Assembly (NCBI RefSeq): GCF_900117415.1
Contig: NZ_FPEI01000004.1
Coordinates: forward strand, 682,001-746,000
DNA length: 64,000 bases
Source of the DNA: Hyphomicrobium sp. CS1BSMeth3
GTDB taxonomy: Bacteria; Pseudomonadota; Alphaproteobacteria; Rhizobiales; Hyphomicrobiaceae
Direction: 5' to 3'
Shown: piece after piece, positions 13,994-59,368 of the stretch
How the letters are laid out: each line of letters begins with the position of its first letter
Numbering within the stretch: position 1 is the stretch's first letter
Translations under genes and position numbers: made by a program
Notes under the pieces: model-generated
What the model was told of the DNA's origin: nothing
The model's input: only the letters and a program-made list of their open reading frames with translations
Database searches by the model: none

Positions 13994-14012
13994 TACCTTC
14001 TCCGTGCCGCAC

Positions 14013-14075
14013 TAGCGTGCCTTATGATTCCGAAGTTCGCCGGGATGCGGCGAATTCCTCGATCATCACACGAGC
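14013..14075. repeat. Internally deleted copy of the flagellar-leader palindromic repeat
   Basis: The left end (CTAGCGT, then GATTCCGAAGTTCGCC) matches the first half of the 167-bp elements at 16635 and 31298. The right end (GCGAATTCCTCGATCATCACACGAG) matches their second half. About 104 bp are missing between the inner arms, so the left arm of palindrome 1 is joined to the right arm of palindrome 2. It begins 20 nt upstream of the flaF ATG. Confidence 0.75.
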
Positions 14076-14090: not shown

Positions 14091-15140
14091 TCACAGGTAG
14101 TTGAGCAGCGTGAGCTGCTGCATCCGCGCCGTGATCTTGTAGGACGCCTCGATCCGCGCCGTCAGCGCGCTGAGCCGGTCCGCCACTTCGAAGGGGTCGA
14201 CCCCCTCCAACTTACCGATGCGGCCCTCGAGCGCCTGCTTCTCGATGGCAATACGCTCGTTTGCTTGCGCAAGGCGTTCCTGAGCGACGCCCACGCGCGC
14301 CTGCGTGGCGACGACACTGTAGCCGCCTTCGCTCGACGTGTTTGCGATTCGCGCGGCCAACACACTGAACGTCTCGGCGTTCAGATTCTCGGTGCCCCCA
14401 TCGATCGCGAGCGTCAGCGCGAAGTAGAGCTGGCGAATGCCGCGGTCGTTCGCCGTCGACGAGGTGTTGATCTCCTCGTGCTGAGAGATGCGGTCGCGCA
14501 TCACCTCGTCGGTCGCGTGGGAGAAGTTCGCGCTCCACTGCGGCTCCTCGAAGAGCGCCGCGAACGGCCCATCCATATAAGCCGTCATCTGAGCCGGCGT
14601 AATCGTCACGGCCTGAGGATCGTCCGGCGGGAAGCCGAATGCGGCCGTGAACGTCGAGATCACCGCCGTACGCGCAGGACTCGGCGGCTCGCTCAGATAG
14701 TCGTCGACCGGCGGGACCGAGATGTTGAGGCCCGAAAATGCATAAACGCCGTTCGAGCTGGTTCTAAGGACATCCGAGAGCGTTTCCATACGCGACTTCG
14801 CATCGGCGACGAGAAGGCCGCGATCGCCGCCCGCTTTGTAGATGCCGAGCGTCGACTCACTGAAGGTCTGCCCCAGATCGCGCATCGCACCAAACGCCGA
14901 TTGCAGGAACTTCATGCGCTGCTCGACGACCGCATTCGTGCTCGTGAGCCCCTCGAGATCGCCGACGATATGGCGCATGTCGAGCACGCCGCCCACCCGG
15001 CCGCCGAGAGTCTTGCCAACGTCGGCGAGGCGACCGCTGCTGAATTCCTTGAGGGTATCAGCGAGATTGGCCTGATTTCTCGCATTGGCCGTGCGCAGGA
15101 TCTCGCGAGAAACGAGCGTCGAGATGGTATCGGCTTTCAT
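14091..15140 (-). CDS. flgL: Flagellar hook-filament junction protein FlgL
   Basis: A 349-residue flagellin-like protein that forms the second junction ring (HAP3) between hook and filament. It has the flagellin-type N-terminal helix (STLVSREILRTANARNQANLADTLKEFSSGRLADVGKTLGG) and C-terminal helix (RIEASYKITARMQQLTLLNYL) around a variable middle. It starts 3 bp after the flgK stop and is presumably cotranscribed and escorted by the FlgN-like chaperone. Confidence 0.92.
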   Translation of the reverse strand: MKADTISTLVSREILRTANARNQANLADTLKEFSSGRLADVGKTLGGRVGGVLDMRHIVGDLEGLTSTNAVVEQRMKFLQSAFGAMRDLGQTFSESTLGIYKAGGDRGLLVADAKSRMETLSDVLRTSSNGVYAFSGLNISVPPVDDYLSEPPSPARTAVISTFTAAFGFPPDDPQAVTITPAQMTAYMDGPFAALFEEPQWSANFSHATDEVMRDRISQHEEINTSSTANDRGIRQLYFALTLAIDGGTENLNAETFSVLAARIANTSSEGGYSVVATQARVGVAQERLAQANERIAIEKQALEGRIGKLEGVDPFEVADRLSALTARIEASYKITARMQQLTLLNYL

Positions 15141-15143
15141 GCG

Positions 15144-16616
15144 CTACAGCGCTCCCGTGGCTCTTAGGATGGACTGGAACATCTGATCGACGGTCGATAT
15201 GAGCCGAGCCGTCGCCTGATAGGAGCGCTCGATCGCCATCAGGCTGGTCATCTCCTCGTCGAGGCTGATGCCGACCTGGCCCTGCCAGGCATTGAGCGCA
15301 CGCTCGCCGAGCACCTCGCGGTCGGCCAGGCGTTCACTCGTGTTGCTGCGGCGGGCCTCGATCCAGCCGCCACTTTCGGTAGCGAGCGCGAGCAGGCTCT
15401 TCGAGCTGCTGAGACCCGTCGCCGGATCGAATGCCTGCGTCTCCGACATCGCAGCCGCGAGATCACGCAGCCTCTGGCTGAAACCCGCGCCACCACCGGC
15501 GTTGTACACATAATCGGGCTCGCTCGGATCGCCGATGCCGCCGTCACGGATGCGCGCCAGGACGCCGCCCTGTGACGGGTCGGCATTCGGATTGACCTGG
15601 ATCGACATGGCGATGCCGTCCAGAACCGTGCCGCCGGGCGGCAGCGTCGGACCACCGGCCCACGTGAAGAGGCCCGCGATGCTCGGCAGCGTCGGCGTAC
15701 CCGACTGATCGCTCTCAGCGAAGGCCGTGATCAGGCCGCGCGCGATCTCGTCGATCTGGCGGCCGAAGGAGATCGAGACGTCGTCACGAATTTGCAGGAG
15801 GCCGCCGATCTTCCCGCCGATACGCGTCGCCGCAGCGCCCGAGTAGGGCACGCCGTCGATCGTCAACAGGCCACCCGGCTGACCGGGCGAGAGCGGCGCA
15901 TTGTCGAACGTGATCGCCCGCGGCACCGTCTCGAACAGGGTCGTCCCGTTCGCGGTGAACAGGACCATGTCGTTGTTGCTGCGCGTGGTCGGGTGAATGT
16001 CGATAAGGCCCGAGATCTCGCGCAGCAGCATGTTGCGCCGATCGATCTGATCGGTCACGTCCCGGCCGATAACCGTGCCGGATACGATCGCGTTATTGGT
16101 GTCCTCGAAATCCTTGAGGAGCGATCCGAGCTGACGCGTCGCCTCAGCAAGATCGGTGTTGGCTTCCTTGCGCACCTGCGCGACGAGCTTCGCCGCATCC
16201 TGCAACGTGTAGGCGACGTTGTTTGCGGCGGAAACGACGTTGCGCAGGAGGGATTCGTTGCTCGGATCGGCAGCCGCGGCATAGAGCGCCTTCTGCATCT
16301 CCGTCAGCATTGCTGCCGGGCTGACGCCGAGCTCCGGATCGTTGACCACGGCGCCCAGCCGCTCGAGCGCGGCGGACATGCTCGACAGCTCGCTATGCTT
16401 GGCGGAGCTGCTGAGCACGCTCTCGAGTAGCCGCGTCGATACGGCATTGCTGATCGTGCCGAGGCGGACACCGATTTCCGAGCTGATGGTGTGCGCGTAC
16501 TTACGAGCGGCGTTTGGGTTGTCGACGTTGGAGATGTTACGCGAAACCAGAGAGGACTGCGTGGCATTGGCGAGCAGCCCACCGCGGGCAATCTCATGAG
16601 CGAGCGTAAGTGACAT
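15144..16616 (-). CDS. flgK: Flagellar hook-associated protein FlgK
   Basis: The first hook-filament junction protein (HAP1), 490 residues. The N terminus carries the axial motif SLVSRNISNVDNPNAARKYAH (about 23-43), and the C terminus has ISLDEEMTSLMAIERSYQATARLISTVDQMFQSIL. The ribosome site GGGGGAGG lies 4 nt from ATG. A complete 167-bp palindromic repeat begins 18 nt upstream of the ATG, so the flgE-flgK spacer is almost entirely repeat. Confidence 0.95.
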   Translation of the reverse strand: MSLTLAHEIARGGLLANATQSSLVSRNISNVDNPNAARKYAHTISSEIGVRLGTISNAVSTRLLESVLSSSAKHSELSSMSAALERLGAVVNDPELGVSPAAMLTEMQKALYAAAADPSNESLLRNVVSAANNVAYTLQDAAKLVAQVRKEANTDLAEATRQLGSLLKDFEDTNNAIVSGTVIGRDVTDQIDRRNMLLREISGLIDIHPTTRSNNDMVLFTANGTTLFETVPRAITFDNAPLSPGQPGGLLTIDGVPYSGAAATRIGGKIGGLLQIRDDVSISFGRQIDEIARGLITAFAESDQSGTPTLPSIAGLFTWAGGPTLPPGGTVLDGIAMSIQVNPNADPSQGGVLARIRDGGIGDPSEPDYVYNAGGGAGFSQRLRDLAAAMSETQAFDPATGLSSSKSLLALATESGGWIEARRSNTSERLADREVLGERALNAWQGQVGISLDEEMTSLMAIERSYQATARLISTVDQMFQSILRATGAL

Positions 16617-16634: not shown

Positions 16635-16801
16635 CTAGTGTCCCGATGCCGAAGTTCGCTTGACCTCGATGCTGGCGTCCCGAGCGAACTTCGGCATAAA
16701 AAAGGACACTAGAAACATAGATTTGCCAGCGTGATTCAGATCGAGGAATTCGCTCGGCACAGCGCCGCGAGATCTGGCGAATTTCTCGATCATCACACTA
16801 G
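16635..16801. repeat. 167-bp nested palindromic element, copy upstream of flgK
   Basis: Termini are CTAGTGT and ACACTAG. Palindrome 1 has outer arms 16635-16643 / 16704-16712 (9 bp, perfect), inner arms 16646-16660 / 16683-16697 (15 bp, perfect) and a 22-nt spacer. Palindrome 2 has outer arms 16731-16735 / 16792-16796, a 3-nt left bulge, inner arms 16739-16753 / 16777-16791 (15 bp, one wobble) and a 23-nt spacer. It is the best-preserved copy and lies in the flgE-flgK spacer. Confidence 0.9.
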
Positions 16802-16813
16802 ACCCAACCAGGC

Positions 16814-18073
16814 CTACCGCTTCAAGTTGACCACCAATTCCATGAGCTCCGAGCCCGTCTGGAAGACGCGCGAGTTCGCCGTGTAATTGCGCTGCGCCTC
16901 GATCATGTCGGCAAGCTCGGTGGCGAGATCGACCGTCGAGCTTTCAAGCGCGCCGGAGCGTATGTCGCCAAACCCTGCGCTCCCGGCAATGCCCACGCGG
17001 AGATCGCCGGAGTTGTTCGACGGCAGGAAGATATTTCCCGCCTTGGGCGTGAGACGGTCGGGGCTAGCGACCGTGGCCAGCGGAATGAGATAGGTCGCAA
17101 AGCGCGAGCCGTTCTCGTAGACCTCGTAGAGCCTGCCGTCCGTATCGATCTCGATGCTCTGAACCCGGCTCGGCGCGTTGCCATTGGTATTGATCAGATC
17201 CACCGAGTAGTCGCCGGCGGTCTGCGTCATGGACGCAAGATCCATCACCATGGTCGCGCCGCCAGGAATCGGCACGGAGAGCGACTGCGCGCTGCTCGGA
17301 TCGAGCTGGCCAACACCATCGAACTGCAGCGTCGTGGTCGCCAGCGCCGCGCCCGCATAGGGGAAGCCACCGGTCGGGCCGCGACCAGCCGCGTCGTAAA
17401 CGGTCATCTCCCAGTCGCCCGTCGACAACTTGGCGAAGTGGACGTCGAGCATGATTTCCTCGCCAAGATTGCCGATGACGAGGACGGATGAGCGCGCCGT
17501 CGAGACGGCACCCGCGGCGTTGGTCGACGGCAAGTTCGCCGGGAGCACGTCGTCCGCCATAGCGGGAAGGTTGGCGATGATGCTTCCGATGGTCGTCGGC
17601 GTCGCCCGCATGCCGCCGGCCGTCACATTCACCGGAACGAGCCCCGCCGTGCCGTTGATGACCGGAGGCCCTGAGGCGTTCTCCGGGAGCGGATAGCCCA
17701 TGAGGGTATAGCCGGCCGAATTGATCAGGCGCCCCTCGCCATCCGGGACGAAGGCACCCGCGCGGGTGAGCGCCAGACTTCCGTCCGGCGCCGAAACGAT
17801 CATGAAACCGGCACCGCGAATTGCCATATCGAAGGGCGATGTCGACGGCGCCAGAACCCCCTGCTGGGAGATACCGTAGCGGACGTCCGTTTCCACGCCG
17901 CCCGAATTATATGACGTGGTGGTATCGTTCAGCAAAAGCGAGGAGAATTGCGTACTCGCCCGCTTATAACCGACCGTCGAAGCATTCGCGATATTGTCGG
18001 CGATCGTGCCCAGCCGATTGGACTGCGCATTCATTCCCGATGCGCCTGTGCGCATCAGCCCATAAACACTCAT
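16814..18073 (-). CDS. flgE: Flagellar hook protein FlgE
   Basis: A 419-residue structural subunit of the hook. It has the axial N-terminal motif NRLGTIADNIANASTVGYKRASTQFSSLL (about 20-48), a central variable domain with PDGEGRLINSAGYTLMGYPLP, and the C-terminal axial helix ELADMIEAQRNYTANSRVFQTGSELMELVVNLKR. The length and the extra central domain distinguish it from FlgF and FlgG. It is the first gene of the flgE-to-fliR transcription unit and follows rem by 74 bp. Confidence 0.95.
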   Translation of the reverse strand: MSVYGLMRTGASGMNAQSNRLGTIADNIANASTVGYKRASTQFSSLLLNDTTTSYNSGGVETDVRYGISQQGVLAPSTSPFDMAIRGAGFMIVSAPDGSLALTRAGAFVPDGEGRLINSAGYTLMGYPLPENASGPPVINGTAGLVPVNVTAGGMRATPTTIGSIIANLPAMADDVLPANLPSTNAAGAVSTARSSVLVIGNLGEEIMLDVHFAKLSTGDWEMTVYDAAGRGPTGGFPYAGAALATTTLQFDGVGQLDPSSAQSLSVPIPGGATMVMDLASMTQTAGDYSVDLINTNGNAPSRVQSIEIDTDGRLYEVYENGSRFATYLIPLATVASPDRLTPKAGNIFLPSNNSGDLRVGIAGSAGFGDIRSGALESSTVDLATELADMIEAQRNYTANSRVFQTGSELMELVVNLKR

Positions 18074-28437: not shown

Positions 28438-28600
28438 CTAAAGCAACGGACTTGAAATTCGCCTCACCTCGACGCGGGCAGGGAGCGAATTTCAAGTCCA
28501 AAGTTGCTTTAGAAAAATTGAGTCTAAAGCGTCGTTAGACCTCAAATGCGACTCTGAGCCCGGTACGAACCGTAGGTCGCATTTGAGGTCCGACGCTTTA
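28438..28600. repeat. 163-bp double palindromic element, copy upstream of fliF
   Basis: Palindrome 1: outer arms 28438-28447 / 28503-28512 (10 bp, perfect), inner arms 28448-28462 / 28485-28499 (15 bp, perfect), 22-nt spacer, 3-nt AAA bulge on the right. Palindrome 2: outer arms 28525-28534 / 28591-28600 (10 bp, perfect), inner arms 28538-28552 / 28576-28590 (15 bp, perfect), 23-nt spacer, 3-nt TTA bulge on the left. Dimensions match the flgK copy although most arm bases differ. Confidence 0.9.
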
Positions 28601-28749: not shown

Positions 28750-29796
28750 TTAGCGGAAGAGCGAGAGGATGCTCTGGCCGTTGGCGTTGGCGATCGACAG
28801 CGCCTGGATGCCGAGCTGCTGCTGAACCTGCAGCGCCTGGAGACGGGTCGACTCAGCGTTCATGTCGGCGTCGACGAGCGTCGAGATGCCACGATCGAGA
28901 GCATCCATCAGGCTGGACACGAAGTCCTTCTGGATGTCGATGCGCTTCTTCGTGGAACCCATGATCGTCGCAGCGGTCGTCATCTCCGTGAGCGCGGCAT
29001 CGACGGCCTGGATGTAGTCCTCGATGTCCTCGTCAGAGGCGTTCGTGATGTCGATCTCGGCTTCACCAACCGTGGAGTTGTCGGGATCGTAGTTCACGAT
29101 CACGATGGTGCCGGCCGCATCGATGGAGCCACGCGCAACGCCAGCCGTATCGGCATCAGCGCGCGTCAGGCGGTTCGAGCCGAGGATACCGAGCGCATCG
29201 GCAGTCGCGCTGCCCGAGTCGGCCGCCGCACCCGCCGTGCCATCCGTGTTGGCATCGAGCAGGAACATGTCCTTGACGTCGATCTTCAGGGTGCCGACCG
29301 TGACTTCCGAGCCGTTCTCGCCGTTGCTGCGGGCGAACGAGGAGACGACCGACTGCTCGTCGAGATAGCTCGCGGAGCCCGAGTCGACGCCGAGCCAGTT
29401 CTGGCCACCGAACGAAGCCGACTTGGCGATCGTGCGGAGCTGGTTCTGGATCTCGTCGATTTCGGTCTGGATCTTCGCCTTGTCGACGCCCGGCTGGCGG
29501 GCCGAAACGAGCAGCTTGCCCATTTCCTTGACGGACTCGATCGCGCTGTTCATCGCCGTGTAGGCGACGTCGATCGTCGCAGCGCCGATCCCGAGCGCGT
29601 CATTGACGGCCGAGAGCGACTTGTTGTCGGCGCGCATGGAGGTCGCGAGGGACCAGTAGGCGGCGCTGTCCTGAGCCGTCGCGACGCGGAAGCCGGTCGA
29701 GATCCGGTTCTGCGTGATGCTGAGGTTCTTGTTGGTCTGGCTGAGGCTCTGGAGAGCGGTCTGCGCGGCGAAATTGGTATTGATGCTGTTGGCCAT
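28750..29796 (-). CDS. fliC: Flagellin
   Basis: The 348-residue filament subunit and the only flagellin in the window. The N-terminal D0/D1 domain is NTNFAAQTALQSLSQTNKNLSITQNRISTGFRVATAQDSAAYWSLATSMRAD, and the C-terminal D1/D0 domain ends LQALQVQQQLGIQALSIANANGQSILSLF. The middle (about 135-230) is short, acidic and variable. It is monocistronic: a 214-bp leader region with a hairpin lies upstream and a strong terminator downstream. It is the expected target of FlbT/FlaF control. Confidence 0.96.
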   Translation of the reverse strand: MANSINTNFAAQTALQSLSQTNKNLSITQNRISTGFRVATAQDSAAYWSLATSMRADNKSLSAVNDALGIGAATIDVAYTAMNSAIESVKEMGKLLVSARQPGVDKAKIQTEIDEIQNQLRTIAKSASFGGQNWLGVDSGSASYLDEQSVVSSFARSNGENGSEVTVGTLKIDVKDMFLLDANTDGTAGAAADSGSATADALGILGSNRLTRADADTAGVARGSIDAAGTIVIVNYDPDNSTVGEAEIDITNASDEDIEDYIQAVDAALTEMTTAATIMGSTKKRIDIQKDFVSSLMDALDRGISTLVDADMNAESTRLQALQVQQQLGIQALSIANANGQSILSLFR

Positions 29797-30010: not shown

Positions 30011-30766
30011 TTATCCGAACGATCGCACGAGCCCGCCGACGAGCAGATTCCAGCCGTCGATCAACACGAAGAACAGCACCTTGAACGGCAGCGAGATCGC
30101 GGTCGGCGGCAGCATCATCATGCCCATCGACATCACGAGCGTCGCGACGATCAGGTCGATGACGAGAAACGGCAGGATGATCAGAAAGCCGATCTCGAAT
30201 CCGCGTCTCAACTCCGAGATCATGAAGGCCGGCACCAGCACGCGCATGTCGACTTCCGCAGGCTGTCCCGATGCATTCGGCGTCGCGGGCGGCGTGCGGC
30301 TGCGCGAGATGCTCTCGAAGAGCTGGATGTCCTTTTCGCGCACGTTCGCCTGCATGAACTCGCGCAGCGGCCGCGTCATGCGCTGGTAGGCTTCGCGCTC
30401 GTTGAGCCGGTTCTCCATGAGCGGCTGGACGCCTTCCGCCCACATGCGGTCGAACACCGGCGCCATCACGAAAAACGTCATGAAAAGCGCAAGGCTGACC
30501 AGCACGATGTTCGATGGCGTCGAAGGCAGGCCGACGCCCGAGCGCAGGAACGAGAGCGCAATGATGAAGCGCGTGAAGCAGGTGACCGTGACGAGCAGGC
30601 CCGGCGCAATCGACAGCACCGAGATGAGCGTGATGAGCTGGAGGATGCGCGCGCTCGTCGAGCCCTGCCCCTCGGGGATGAGGTCCTGAAGATTGATCGT
30701 CTGCGCGATCGCGACGCCCGGCACCAGGATCAGCGCCAGTGCGGCAATGACAGCGAGCCGCCTCAT
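30011..30766 (-). CDS. fliP: Flagellar export apparatus protein FliP
   Basis: The main pore subunit of the export gate, 251 residues, with a cleavable signal peptide (LAVIAALALILVPGVAIAQ). Conserved segments are VTCFTRFIIALSFLRSGVGLPSTPSNIVLVSLALFMTFFVMAP (about 61-103) and FLIILPFLVIDLIVATLVMSMGMMMLPP near the end. It overlaps the fliL stop by 4 bp and is the last gene of the flgB-fliP unit. No fliO lies next to it. Confidence 0.96.
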   Translation of the reverse strand: MRRLAVIAALALILVPGVAIAQTINLQDLIPEGQGSTSARILQLITLISVLSIAPGLLVTVTCFTRFIIALSFLRSGVGLPSTPSNIVLVSLALFMTFFVMAPVFDRMWAEGVQPLMENRLNEREAYQRMTRPLREFMQANVREKDIQLFESISRSRTPPATPNASGQPAEVDMRVLVPAFMISELRRGFEIGFLIILPFLVIDLIVATLVMSMGMMMLPPTAISLPFKVLFFVLIDGWNLLVGGLVRSFG

Positions 30767-31293
30767 TCGACCACCAGCGAGCGCAGGATGATGTTGCGCG
30801 CCCGTCCCTTCGAGCGCAATCGTGCGATCTCTTGGATGTCCTCGCGCAGGTACTCGACGCCGGCGGCGCTCTCGACGTGGACGAGTGGCACGGTCCGCAT
30901 GAAGCTCATGATGTCTTCGGTCATGGACTTGAGCAGCACGGCGTCGTCGGGTGTGGTCGGTCCATCGAGGATGACCCCGAGCTCGAGCCGCGCCCAGCTC
31001 CTCTGCGGCCCGGCCAGCGTGACGAGAATGGGATCGAGGCTCGCAACCTGGATCTTGCTCGCCTCGCCGGCTGCGCCCTTGGAGCTGCCCCCGTCGCCGC
31101 TTCTTGCTCCCGCCTTCCCGATCTGCACCTCGCGCTTGCCCGAGCCGGCCTCGTGTGCCGGCGTGCCGGCATTGAGGAACATGAGGCTGAAGCCCGCCCC
31201 GGCGCCGGCCCCGATGACGGCAAGCAGCACCAGCGCAATGACGAAGCCGCCCTTGCCGCCGCCCGCTGCCTTGCCTTCGGTTTCCTCTGCCAT
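30763..31293 (-). CDS. fliL: Flagellar basal body-associated protein FliL
   Basis: A 176-residue single-pass protein: a glycine-rich cytoplasmic start, a transmembrane helix (GGFVIALVLLAVIGAGAGAGFSLMFL), then a periplasmic domain. The FliL end is recognisable in LLKSMTEDIMSFMRTVPLVHVESAAGVEYLREDIQEIARLRSKGRARNIILRSLVVE. FliL forms a ring around the stator. ATG 31293 gives MAEETEGK; an in-frame upstream extension runs into the 167-bp repeat, which begins 4 nt upstream of this ATG and so supplies the sequence around its ribosome site. Confidence 0.93.
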   Translation of the reverse strand: MAEETEGKAAGGGKGGFVIALVLLAVIGAGAGAGFSLMFLNAGTPAHEAGSGKREVQIGKAGARSGDGGSSKGAAGEASKIQVASLDPILVTLAGPQRSWARLELGVILDGPTTPDDAVLLKSMTEDIMSFMRTVPLVHVESAAGVEYLREDIQEIARLRSKGRARNIILRSLVVE

Positions 31294-31297
31294 GCGC

Positions 31298-31464
31298 CTA
31301 GCGTCCCGATTCCAAAGTTCGCCTGATCTCGATGCTGGTGTCCCGAGCGAACTTCGCAATCAGAAGGGACACTAGAAGCATTGTCTTGCTCGTGTGATTC
31401 AGATCGAGAAATTCACTCCCAACCGAGCCGTTTGATATGGCGATTTTCTCGATCATCACACGAG
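31298..31464. repeat. 167-bp nested palindromic element, copy upstream of fliL
   Basis: Exactly the same length as the flgK copy and alignable with it over its whole length. Ends are CTAGCGT and ACACGAG, with the shared spacer CTCGATGCTGGTGTCCCG. Palindrome 1 inner arms are 31309-31323 / 31346-31360 with 12 of 15 positions paired; palindrome 2 spans about 31394-31460. Arms are partly decayed. It fills nearly all of the flgH-fliL spacer. Confidence 0.9.
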
Positions 31465-31466
31465 CC

Positions 31467-32267
31467 TCAGAACGGGCTGTACTTGTCGAGGAGCTGCTGG
31501 CCCCAGGCCGGCTGCTGCACTTCCATCGAGCGCCCGCGGCCGCCATAGGAGATCCGCGCCTCGGCAATGCGCTCGTAGGGGATGGTGTTGTCCGAGCGGA
31601 TGTCCGTGATGTTGACGACGCCGGTGAACGTCAGCACGCGCAGCTCGAAGTTGACGCGCACTTCCTGCGAGCCCTGGATGAGCAAGTTTCCGTTCGGCAG
31701 CACTTCGGTAACGACGGCCGCGAGCCTCAGGTCGATATTTTCAGAGCGCTCGATCTCGCCCTTGCCGTCTGTCGCCGTATTGGATTTCAGCCCCGAGTTG
31801 ACCGCAGCCTTGCCTTCGCTTTTCAGGCCGAACGTGTCGATGCCATGCGACCAATCGAGCCCGAAGCCGTGCGCGGAATCGCGCGAGCGCTTCGAGCGAT
31901 TGTCCATGATGGCCTTGTCCTTCATGGAGATCGTGACCGTCAGAATGTCTCCCGTACGGCGCGCGCGGCGGTCGCGGAAGAGGTCGGCGCCACGCGGCGT
32001 CCAGAGCGACGAGCTGTTGTGTCCGACCGGCTTCAGGTAGGCCGCACGGTTCATGCTGTCGTATGTCGCGGGCGCCACCGGCTTCTGCTCGATGCCCGCG
32101 CCCACCGGGCTCATCGATGGCTCCGTGCCGATCTGGTCCGGCTTCACGGAGCAGCCGACAGCGACCGTCGCCACCACTGCGAGCACGCCGATGCGCGCGC
32201 GCCAGAGCCGCACGGGCACGTCGCGCAAGCGCACTGTTGGGCCTGAACTCTCAGAAGGTGTGCTCAC
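31467..32267 (-). CDS. flgH: Flagellar L-ring lipoprotein FlgH
   Basis: The outer-membrane ring subunit, 266 residues. The N-terminal signal ends in VAVGC, making Cys39 the lipidated residue. The long basic n-region suggests the true start could lie a little downstream. Conserved FlgH sequence appears in LFRDRRARRTGDILTVTISMKDKA, LAAVVTEVLPNGNLLIQGSQEVRVNFELRVLTFTGVVNITDIRSDNTIPYERIAEARISYGGRG. It overlaps the motE stop by 4 bp. Confidence 0.95.
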   Translation of the reverse strand: MSTPSESSGPTVRLRDVPVRLWRARIGVLAVVATVAVGCSVKPDQIGTEPSMSPVGAGIEQKPVAPATYDSMNRAAYLKPVGHNSSSLWTPRGADLFRDRRARRTGDILTVTISMKDKAIMDNRSKRSRDSAHGFGLDWSHGIDTFGLKSEGKAAVNSGLKSNTATDGKGEIERSENIDLRLAAVVTEVLPNGNLLIQGSQEVRVNFELRVLTFTGVVNITDIRSDNTIPYERIAEARISYGGRGRSMEVQQPAWGQQLLDKYSPF

Positions 32268-53795: not shown

Positions 53796-53820
53796 GCCGC
53801 AAGAGCGGCGACCATTTTTC

Positions 53821-53961
53821 CCCTCTCCCCGTGCTTACGGGGAGAGGGTTAGGGTGAGGGGCGGCGACACACGCTGACGTTGGTAAGTGCCGCCGCCCCT
53901 CATCCCGACCTTCTCGTCGCGCTGAAAGCGCGCCTCTGGCGCGACAAGCACGGGGAGAAGG
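53821..53961. repeat. GC-rich palindromic intergenic repeat, copy 1
   Basis: Three hairpins in a row. First arms are 53821-53831 / 53838-53848 (CCCTCTCCCCG / CGGGGAGAGGG). Central arms are 53856-53866 / 53891-53901 (GAGGGGCGGCG / CGCCGCCCCTC). The last arms are CCTTCTC / GAGAAGG (53909-53915 / 53955-53961), enclosing a smaller GTCGCGC / GCGCGAC stem. It fills the spacer between the binding-protein and permease genes and may reduce or protect the downstream message. Confidence 0.85.
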
Positions 53962-59229: not shown

Positions 59230-59254
59230 CACCGGGGCGTGCCGCGCTTCTTCC

Positions 59255-59368
59255 CCTTCTCCCCGTTCTTACGGGGAGAAGGTCGGGATGAGGGGCGGCG
59301 ACATACGCATACGTCGGCAGTTGCCGCCGCCCCTCACCCTGGCCCTCTCCCCGCGCGCGGGGAGAGGG
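59255..59368. repeat. GC-rich palindromic intergenic repeat, copy 2
   Basis: Hairpins are 59255-59265 / 59272-59282 (CCTTCTCCCCG / CGGGGAGAAGG), 59290-59300 / 59325-59335 (GAGGGGCGGCG / CGCCGCCCCTC) and 59343-59353 / 59358-59368. Its reverse complement aligns with copy 1 along most of the length, so it is inverted. It ends 18 nt upstream of the PIF1-like helicase start. Confidence 0.88.

Follow-up and report, generated by a model that had tools for sequence, protein, structure and literature searches.

Palindromic MITEs of the ERIC, YPAL and Correia types are intergenic palindromes of about 100–170 bp that carry no gene. The ends of IS200/IS605 elements are marked by left and right hairpins, and their guide and cleavage tetranucleotides pair with one another. 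For REPINs and REPs, the available parts of two papers (PMC3116915 and PMC8266576) describe a mobile unit made of two paired hairpins, with bulges in the stems, a foot tetranucleotide and compensatory changes. The accessible portion of PMC3733652 treats GTAG and CGTC repeats, the CGTC-tagged REPs being found mostly in alpha-Proteobacteria, and gives the CGTC repeats stems of 8–9 bp, loops of 4–5 nt, short tails and no dedicated transposase gene. A review of MITEs, available in part (PMC10969869), was also among the sources for the comparison with known kinds.

Here we describe a 167-bp double hairpin with CTAG ends, for which no recognised description was found in the open-licence literature searched. 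It occurs twice in a flagellar gene cluster within the window, that is, the whole stretch of 64,000 nucleotides from Hyphomicrobium sp. CS1BSMeth3 that was analysed. An earlier note on this DNA had offered three options for the element, of which a mobile miniature element is the right one. We consider it likely that we are dealing with a mobile repeat of the REPIN/ERIC/MITE kind that is non-autonomous and depends on an enzyme encoded elsewhere, acting in trans.

The flagellar copies and the geometry of the element

Both elements are 167 bp long and lie on the + strand at positions 16635–16801 (copy 1, hairpin A first) and 31298–31464 (copy 2), in agreement with the lengths and coordinates of the earlier note. 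Copy 1 is flanked by a FlgE-type gene (16814–18073, − strand) and flgK (15144–16616, −), and copy 2 by flgH (31467–32267, −) and a FliL-like gene (30763–31293, −); the distances to the downstream start codon, 18 nt for the flgK copy and 4 nt for the fliL copy, are those that the note had given. The end-to-end alignment of the two copies that it reported was reproduced without gaps, with 81% identity over a 175-nt extension, and the CTAGYGT/ACACKAG termini, the two palindromes, the 15-bp inner arms and the asymmetric bulges were all found, with loops of 23–24 nt. Pfam supports the neighbours as FlgK, FlgE-type, FlgH, FliF, FlaF and flagellin-domain proteins, and the match to FliL is sub-threshold (E 0.0012, 19.7 bits vs a cut-off of 24.6). 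The cluster encodes two proteins with both N- and C-terminal flagellin domains (28750–29796 and 14091–15140), the latter adjoining FlaF.

Hairpin A of copy 1 (16635–16712, +), supported by its fold and by covariation, has a 10-bp stem of the CTAGTGTCCC type, a 15-bp inner stem, a 24-nt loop and a bulge on the inner (3′) arm. A 13-nt linker (16713–16725, +), delimited from the alignments, leads to hairpin B (16726–16801, +; fold and alignments), which comprises a 10-bp stem, a TCA bulge on the inner (5′) arm, a 15-bp stem and a 23-nt loop; in this copy it has CCAG as its inner tetranucleotide and CTAG at its end. Folded with short flanks, copy 1 gave z = −6.7 as DNA and −6.9 as RNA, and none of 200 shuffles was as stable. 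Two related features of the window had been omitted by the earlier note. A 63-bp single-hairpin derivative (14012–14074, +) lies between a flagellin-domain gene and flaF and is absent at this site in the congeners G002 and G004; it consists of the A outer arm fused to the B outer arm, both inner arms being gone. The other is a near-full copy of a second family, found by profile search between fliF and a flagellin-domain gene (28438–28599, +).

The geometry of each hairpin is fixed, with a 10-bp stem, a 3–4-nt bulge on the inner arm, a 15-bp stem and a 23–24-nt loop, and hairpins A and B are joined by 13 nt of linker. Read from A to B, the consensus of hairpin A is CTAGTGTCCC, a 15-bp stem, a 24-nt loop, the returning 15 bp, an AAAA bulge and GGGACACTAG, and that of hairpin B is CTAGTGTGAT, a TCA bulge, a 15-bp stem, a 23-nt loop, the returning 15 bp and ATCACACTAG. 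The full-length copies seen are two-hairpin units with fixed ends and a length of about 164–168 bp. The element thus has the two inverted palindromes as replicative unit by which a REPIN is recognised, together with the terminal inverted repeats (CTAGTGT...ACACTAG) and the absence of coding capacity, in a unit of only 167 bp, by which a MITE is recognised.

Variation was assessed in 52 copies from the same genome; all are distinct and 150 bp or longer, and for contig C5 a score above 100 bits was also required, which leaves out the three copies of a variant subfamily. Per-site variation is 1.4–7.5% in the arms and about 18% in the loops and linker; it is 12.5% in the A bulge and 1.9% in the B bulge. 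Base pairing itself has been maintained by compensation, in that 10 pairs are changed on both sides among 35 copies with exactly 167 positions (25 from the own genome, out of the 31 at loci L001–L031, and 10 from relatives), vs a mean of 1.7 for shuffled alignments, none of 500 of which reached that number, and at most 3 double-changed pairs when the structure was slid along the alignment. Stem mismatches comprise 21 G–T vs 28 A–C in the 52 own copies and 19 vs 19 in 30 others; given this lack of strand bias, nothing here favours selection as RNA or a process confined to one strand. Decay of the copies is best explained by small deletions and the clean loss of one hairpin. In some variant elements (contig C5 297262, 669631 and 1007558; loci L040 and L057) the linker appeared by eye to run in the reverse direction with respect to the two hairpins.

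At each end of the element the last four letters pair with the foot of the inner arm, in the combinations CTAG/CTAG, CTCG/CGAG, CTGG/CCAG, CCAG/CTGG, GTAG/CTAC and CTAA/TTAG. End and inner tetranucleotide are complementary in 64 of 93 usable copies for hairpin B (permuted maximum 53) and in 79 of 93 for hairpin A (permuted maximum 76), counts that were taken from 94 copies, one with gaps being dropped, and that are inflated by shared descent. Many copies have CGAG at the B-end, where it pairs with an inner CTCG, and the A-end mostly remains CTAG. A polarity in which the A-end derives from the target and the B-end from the element is suggested, not significantly, by the non-CTAG ends at A vs B (Fisher p = 0.09).

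The geometry recurs in the second family, whose ends read CTAAAG: a stem of 10 bp, a 3-nt inner-arm bulge, a further stem of 15 bp, a loop of about 20–24 nt and a linker of about 11–13 nt. Its end and stem sequences differ from those of the CTAG family save for a common GAAATTCGC core. A profile built from four copies gave 12 matches on the contig, 6 of them near full length and two weak ones being cross-matches in CTAG-type copies. The occurrence of one geometry in two families suggests that the mobilising machinery reads shape, and a distant common origin of both families is equally possible. An unrelated dispersed palindromic repeat of the CCCCTCTCCCCG...CGGGGAGAGGG type is also present, at 53817–53922 and 59251–59356 of the window and around positions 330040, 330870 and 768330 of contig C5, with many matches in G003.

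Dispersal, empty sites and a probable CTAG target

Within its own genome the element has at least 41 matches that span at least 164 of the 167 positions at 84–100% identity, among the best 40 of 154 candidates, which were the ones scored; since only these were scored, the genome-wide total is probably higher. A profile search of the complete 1.06-Mb contig that contains the window found 46 places, 30 of which span at least 150 bp (27 scoring above 100 bits and three representing the variant subfamily), a density of about 28 near-full copies per Mb. The closest pair among the 52 own copies is 96% identical and the median identity is 86%. Among 60 genomes searched, matches were found in 18, all within the same family (18 of 36, the own genome included; G009 and G030 only weakly, near the threshold) and in none of the 24 from other families of the order. 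A 57-nt exact pattern also matched MAGs of a Hyphomicrobium sp. and of a member of the Hyphomicrobiales. Searches of plasmid and phage collections with copy 1, and of viral contigs with two exact patterns, gave no match.

The relative G006 shows a recent burst of amplification, 40 of its 40 scored copies being at least 97% identical (best 40 of 111 candidates, the query copy included). Young elements at two of its loci (L207 and L219) both abut one particular end of a palindromic repeat about 60 bp long, with opposite orientations; this common flank was considered as a cargo gene and turned out to be another small repeat. Several contigs of G029 (for example C49:71135–71260) carry matches of nearly equal score to only the final 125 or so positions of the element, which are possibly a second, shorter amplified subfamily. 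In G011 (C2:894925–895253) two tandem elements overlap by exactly 4 bp, as though the CTAG end of one had been the insertion site for the other.

Orthologous junctions were recovered for 17 copies, namely 12 full copies of the own genome, four of G004 and one of G006. For none of the 12 own copies was a full element present at the orthologous site in the congeners examined. No element occupies the flgK site in G002, G003 or G004, or the fliL site in G002 or G004; the gap at the fliL site is about 15 bp shorter in the own genome than in the relatives. Short remnants were seen by eye at two own sites (777016 in G002 and 786914 in G004), and at one further site the own genome has hairpin A alone, G004 the full element and G003 neither.

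An exact CTAG stands at three of the 17 empty sites, where adjacent stretches of the same size predict 0.15 (own 333782 in G003, the G006 copy in G064 and G004 188511 in G002), with one flank aligning less well at each of the three, and it is absent at the other 14. The CTAG corresponds to the A-end and not the B-end at 333782 and G004 188511, and at the G006-copy site both ends are CTAG. Letters one change from CTAG occur at nine more empty sites, including CTTG at 771611, CTAC at 71411, CTCG at 1007558 and CCAG at 777016; near-CTAG letters were rejected as support for the target, 12 of 17 sites lying within one change vs 10.7 expected by chance. At 771611 the empty site has exactly four letters between flush flanks (CTTG in G003, GTTG in G002 and G004), and the nearly flush empty-site letters at 776318 are not CTAG-like. 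Target duplication of three or more letters beyond CTAG was found in none of 30 young copies, and duplication of four or more in none of the 52 own copies, three of which have three letters duplicated vs 0.8 expected; the terminal four letters themselves may be either duplicated target or part of the element. Insertion seems to take place at CTAG, and precise excision could also leave a single CTAG.

The contig contains 501 CTAGs vs 3460 expected from base composition. Of these, 75 lie inside near-full copies, and 205 of the other 426 lie in non-coding DNA, which makes up 15% of the contig. Since CTAG is both rare and enriched in non-coding DNA, an element that sought it would settle between genes, and such targeting would place insertions also in the stop–start gaps within operons, those of the flagellar genes among them. 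If confirmed, CTAG targeting would account in a simple way for the intergenic location of repeats of this sort.

Some IS families have CTAG-like targets, and the same observations bear on a rival explanation, in which the element is an ordinary MITE whose double-stranded terminal inverted repeats (TGTCCC.../TGTGAT...) are acted on by a DDE transposase with a 4-bp duplication of CTAG, the palindromes being kept perfect by hairpin-templated correction during replication. A duplication of this kind predicts CTAG at both ends, as is seen in 29 of the 30 young copies, and is consistent with the single exact CTAG at three empty sites, with stem mismatches that lack strand bias, and with the mixed outcome, judged by eye, as to which end matches the empty-site letters. 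Many B-ends are CGAG, however, where the A-end is mostly CTAG, and in such copies the ends do not form direct repeats. Nor did the places inspected on contig C5 show a longer element that has these ends and encodes a transposase: the genes beside the end fragments at 170205 and 128101 and those between the close element pairs 332906–333782, 776484–777016 and 1005063–1011701 looked ordinary by eye, with neither a parental IS nor a transposase gene among them. We regard the ordinary MITE as a possible explanation, though one that we hold to be somewhat doubtful.

The putative mobilising enzyme and the flagellar context

The view that the element is a non-autonomous repeat moved in trans raises the identity of the enzyme. 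A true REPIN would be moved by a RAYT or IS200-type Y1 transposase, which could since have been lost or be too divergent for the Pfam model, and the paired mobile hairpins, bulged stems, foot tetranucleotide and compensation match what the available parts of PMC3116915 and PMC8266576 describe. However, Y1_Tnp (PF01797) was not found above the cut-off in any of ten element-rich genomes searched to E = 10 (G000–G004, G006, G010, G011, G018 and G029), the only sub-threshold matches being two in G002 (E 0.71 and 0.99), whereas the positive controls, E. coli and Caulobacter, were detected. PF01797 is present in five of the 36 family genomes, of which G007 alone carries the element, and there the match has an internal stop. 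RAYT mobilisation was thus rejected on two negative PF01797 searches, which included the genome with the recent burst, G006. The hairpins, moreover, measure 76–78 nt and not 20–40 bp, with CTAG inside the stem and not GTAG 5′ of it, and a true REPIN whose transposase has escaped the model is in our judgement unlikely.

We therefore return to a mobile repeat served by an enzyme encoded elsewhere, which would recognise the two folded hairpins and insert the element at CTAG. The pairing between the inner tetranucleotide of each hairpin and the corresponding end would then resemble that of guide and cleavage site in IS200/IS605 elements. A bolder extension, which we put forward as speculative and rather improbable, is that the geometry itself (10-bp stem, 3–4-nt inner bulge and 15-bp stem, twice) defines a class of double hairpins in the alphaproteobacterial family of the host, moved by a non-Y1 enzyme that reads folded DNA, with the inner tetranucleotide picking the target by base pairing so that its change would retarget the element; the natural pairs CTGG with CCAG, CTCG with CGAG and GTAG with CTAC are cited for this reading. 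That two families with different end and stem sequences share a hairpin geometry, and that one of them was recently amplified in a genome where no Y1 transposase was detected, hints at mobilising machinery that may recognise DNA shape; the fresh copies in G006 make that genome a concrete starting point for finding it.

The gene context of the 30 near-full copies was taken from gene calls by a simple ORF scorer, and genes and starts are accordingly predicted ones. Overlap with predicted genes is at most 4 bp for 26 copies, and the other four (180429, 304913, 328298 and 1044382) overlap by 41–161 bp with predictions that may be spurious. Tandem gaps contain 18 copies, divergent gaps 11 and convergent gaps one, where the shares of intergenic length are 56, 28 and 16% (binomial p about 0.04 for avoidance of convergent gaps, by hand calculation); this under-use suggests that the 5′ sides of genes may be favoured or better tolerated. 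The earlier note had held that hundreds of copies across the genome with no preference for gene starts would mark a plain mobile repeat, and the dispersal stands, with 30 near-full copies in 1.06 Mb, while the lack of preference is not clean, as convergent gaps are under-used. Several copies lie 0–18 nt upstream of predicted start codons, and those at 239799, 216066, 713298 and 786914 of contig C5 are 0–6 nt upstream; elements this close perhaps displace the native ribosome-binding region, and a putative local effect of such copies on translation or mRNA is possible.

The flagellar link that the earlier note had entertained is not borne out, since the window holds two copies vs 1.8 expected, the A-to-B orientation between tandem genes runs with transcription in nine cases and against it in nine, and both flagellar sites are empty in congeners. 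No Rfam family was matched in the window at the gathering threshold, the best weaker match around copy 1 scoring 18.5 bits vs a gathering score of 103. A structured mRNA leader or a regulatory element that groups flagellar operons could draw on very stable hairpins, on the placement of the full window copies 4 and 18 nt before start codons, on element ends 0–6 nt from the predicted start at some genes and on the under-used convergent gaps (1 of 30), but it is highly improbable in view of the density of copies, a window count that matches expectation, random orientation, the empty flgK and fliL sites, the lack of a G–U excess in the stems and the Rfam result; a conserved flagellar leader as such is ruled out by the empty orthologous sites and the genome-wide dispersal. 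The presence of the element near flagellar genes is best explained as incidental, by chance, and its strong hairpins may have a putative secondary effect on transcripts. A supposed flagellar regulatory motif hence becomes a mobile repeat, and a false functional annotation is avoided.

Comparison with known systems

By description, which for ERIC and Correia follows the available part of the review, the element resembles ERIC, YPAL and Correia repeats in being a gene-less intergenic palindromic element, and differs from them in its two separate hairpins with fixed bulges and its CTAG ends. With the ends of IS200/IS605 elements it shares two end hairpins, a probable insertion at a tetranucleotide and an internal tetranucleotide that pairs with the end; unlike them it has no transposase, the paired letters belong to one long uninterrupted stem, and the guide role is putative. 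The CTAG-ended unit is far larger than the CGTC-tagged REPs, which, as far as the accessible part of PMC3733652 describes them, provide a precedent for palindromic repeats without a dedicated transposase gene.

The element differs from REPs of 20–40 bp in its length of 167 bp and its 25-bp arms (10 + 15), and in a CTAG that is paired inside the 25-bp stem, in contrast to a GTAG 5′ of the stem or a CGTC tag; unlike for REPINs, a RAYT gene was not found in the ten element-rich genomes. Like the REPIN/REP (BIME) systems with their RAYT (TnpA-REP), it is a short, dispersed, non-coding repeat with two palindromes as the mobile unit, and it shares with them the bulge in the stem (seen in some REPs), the tetranucleotide tag, the conservation of arms over spacer and the occurrence of single units as remnants. 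In the way it works, the closest match, on the available descriptions, is the REPIN, in which two palindromes in inverted arrangement are moved as a unit and show compensatory changes.
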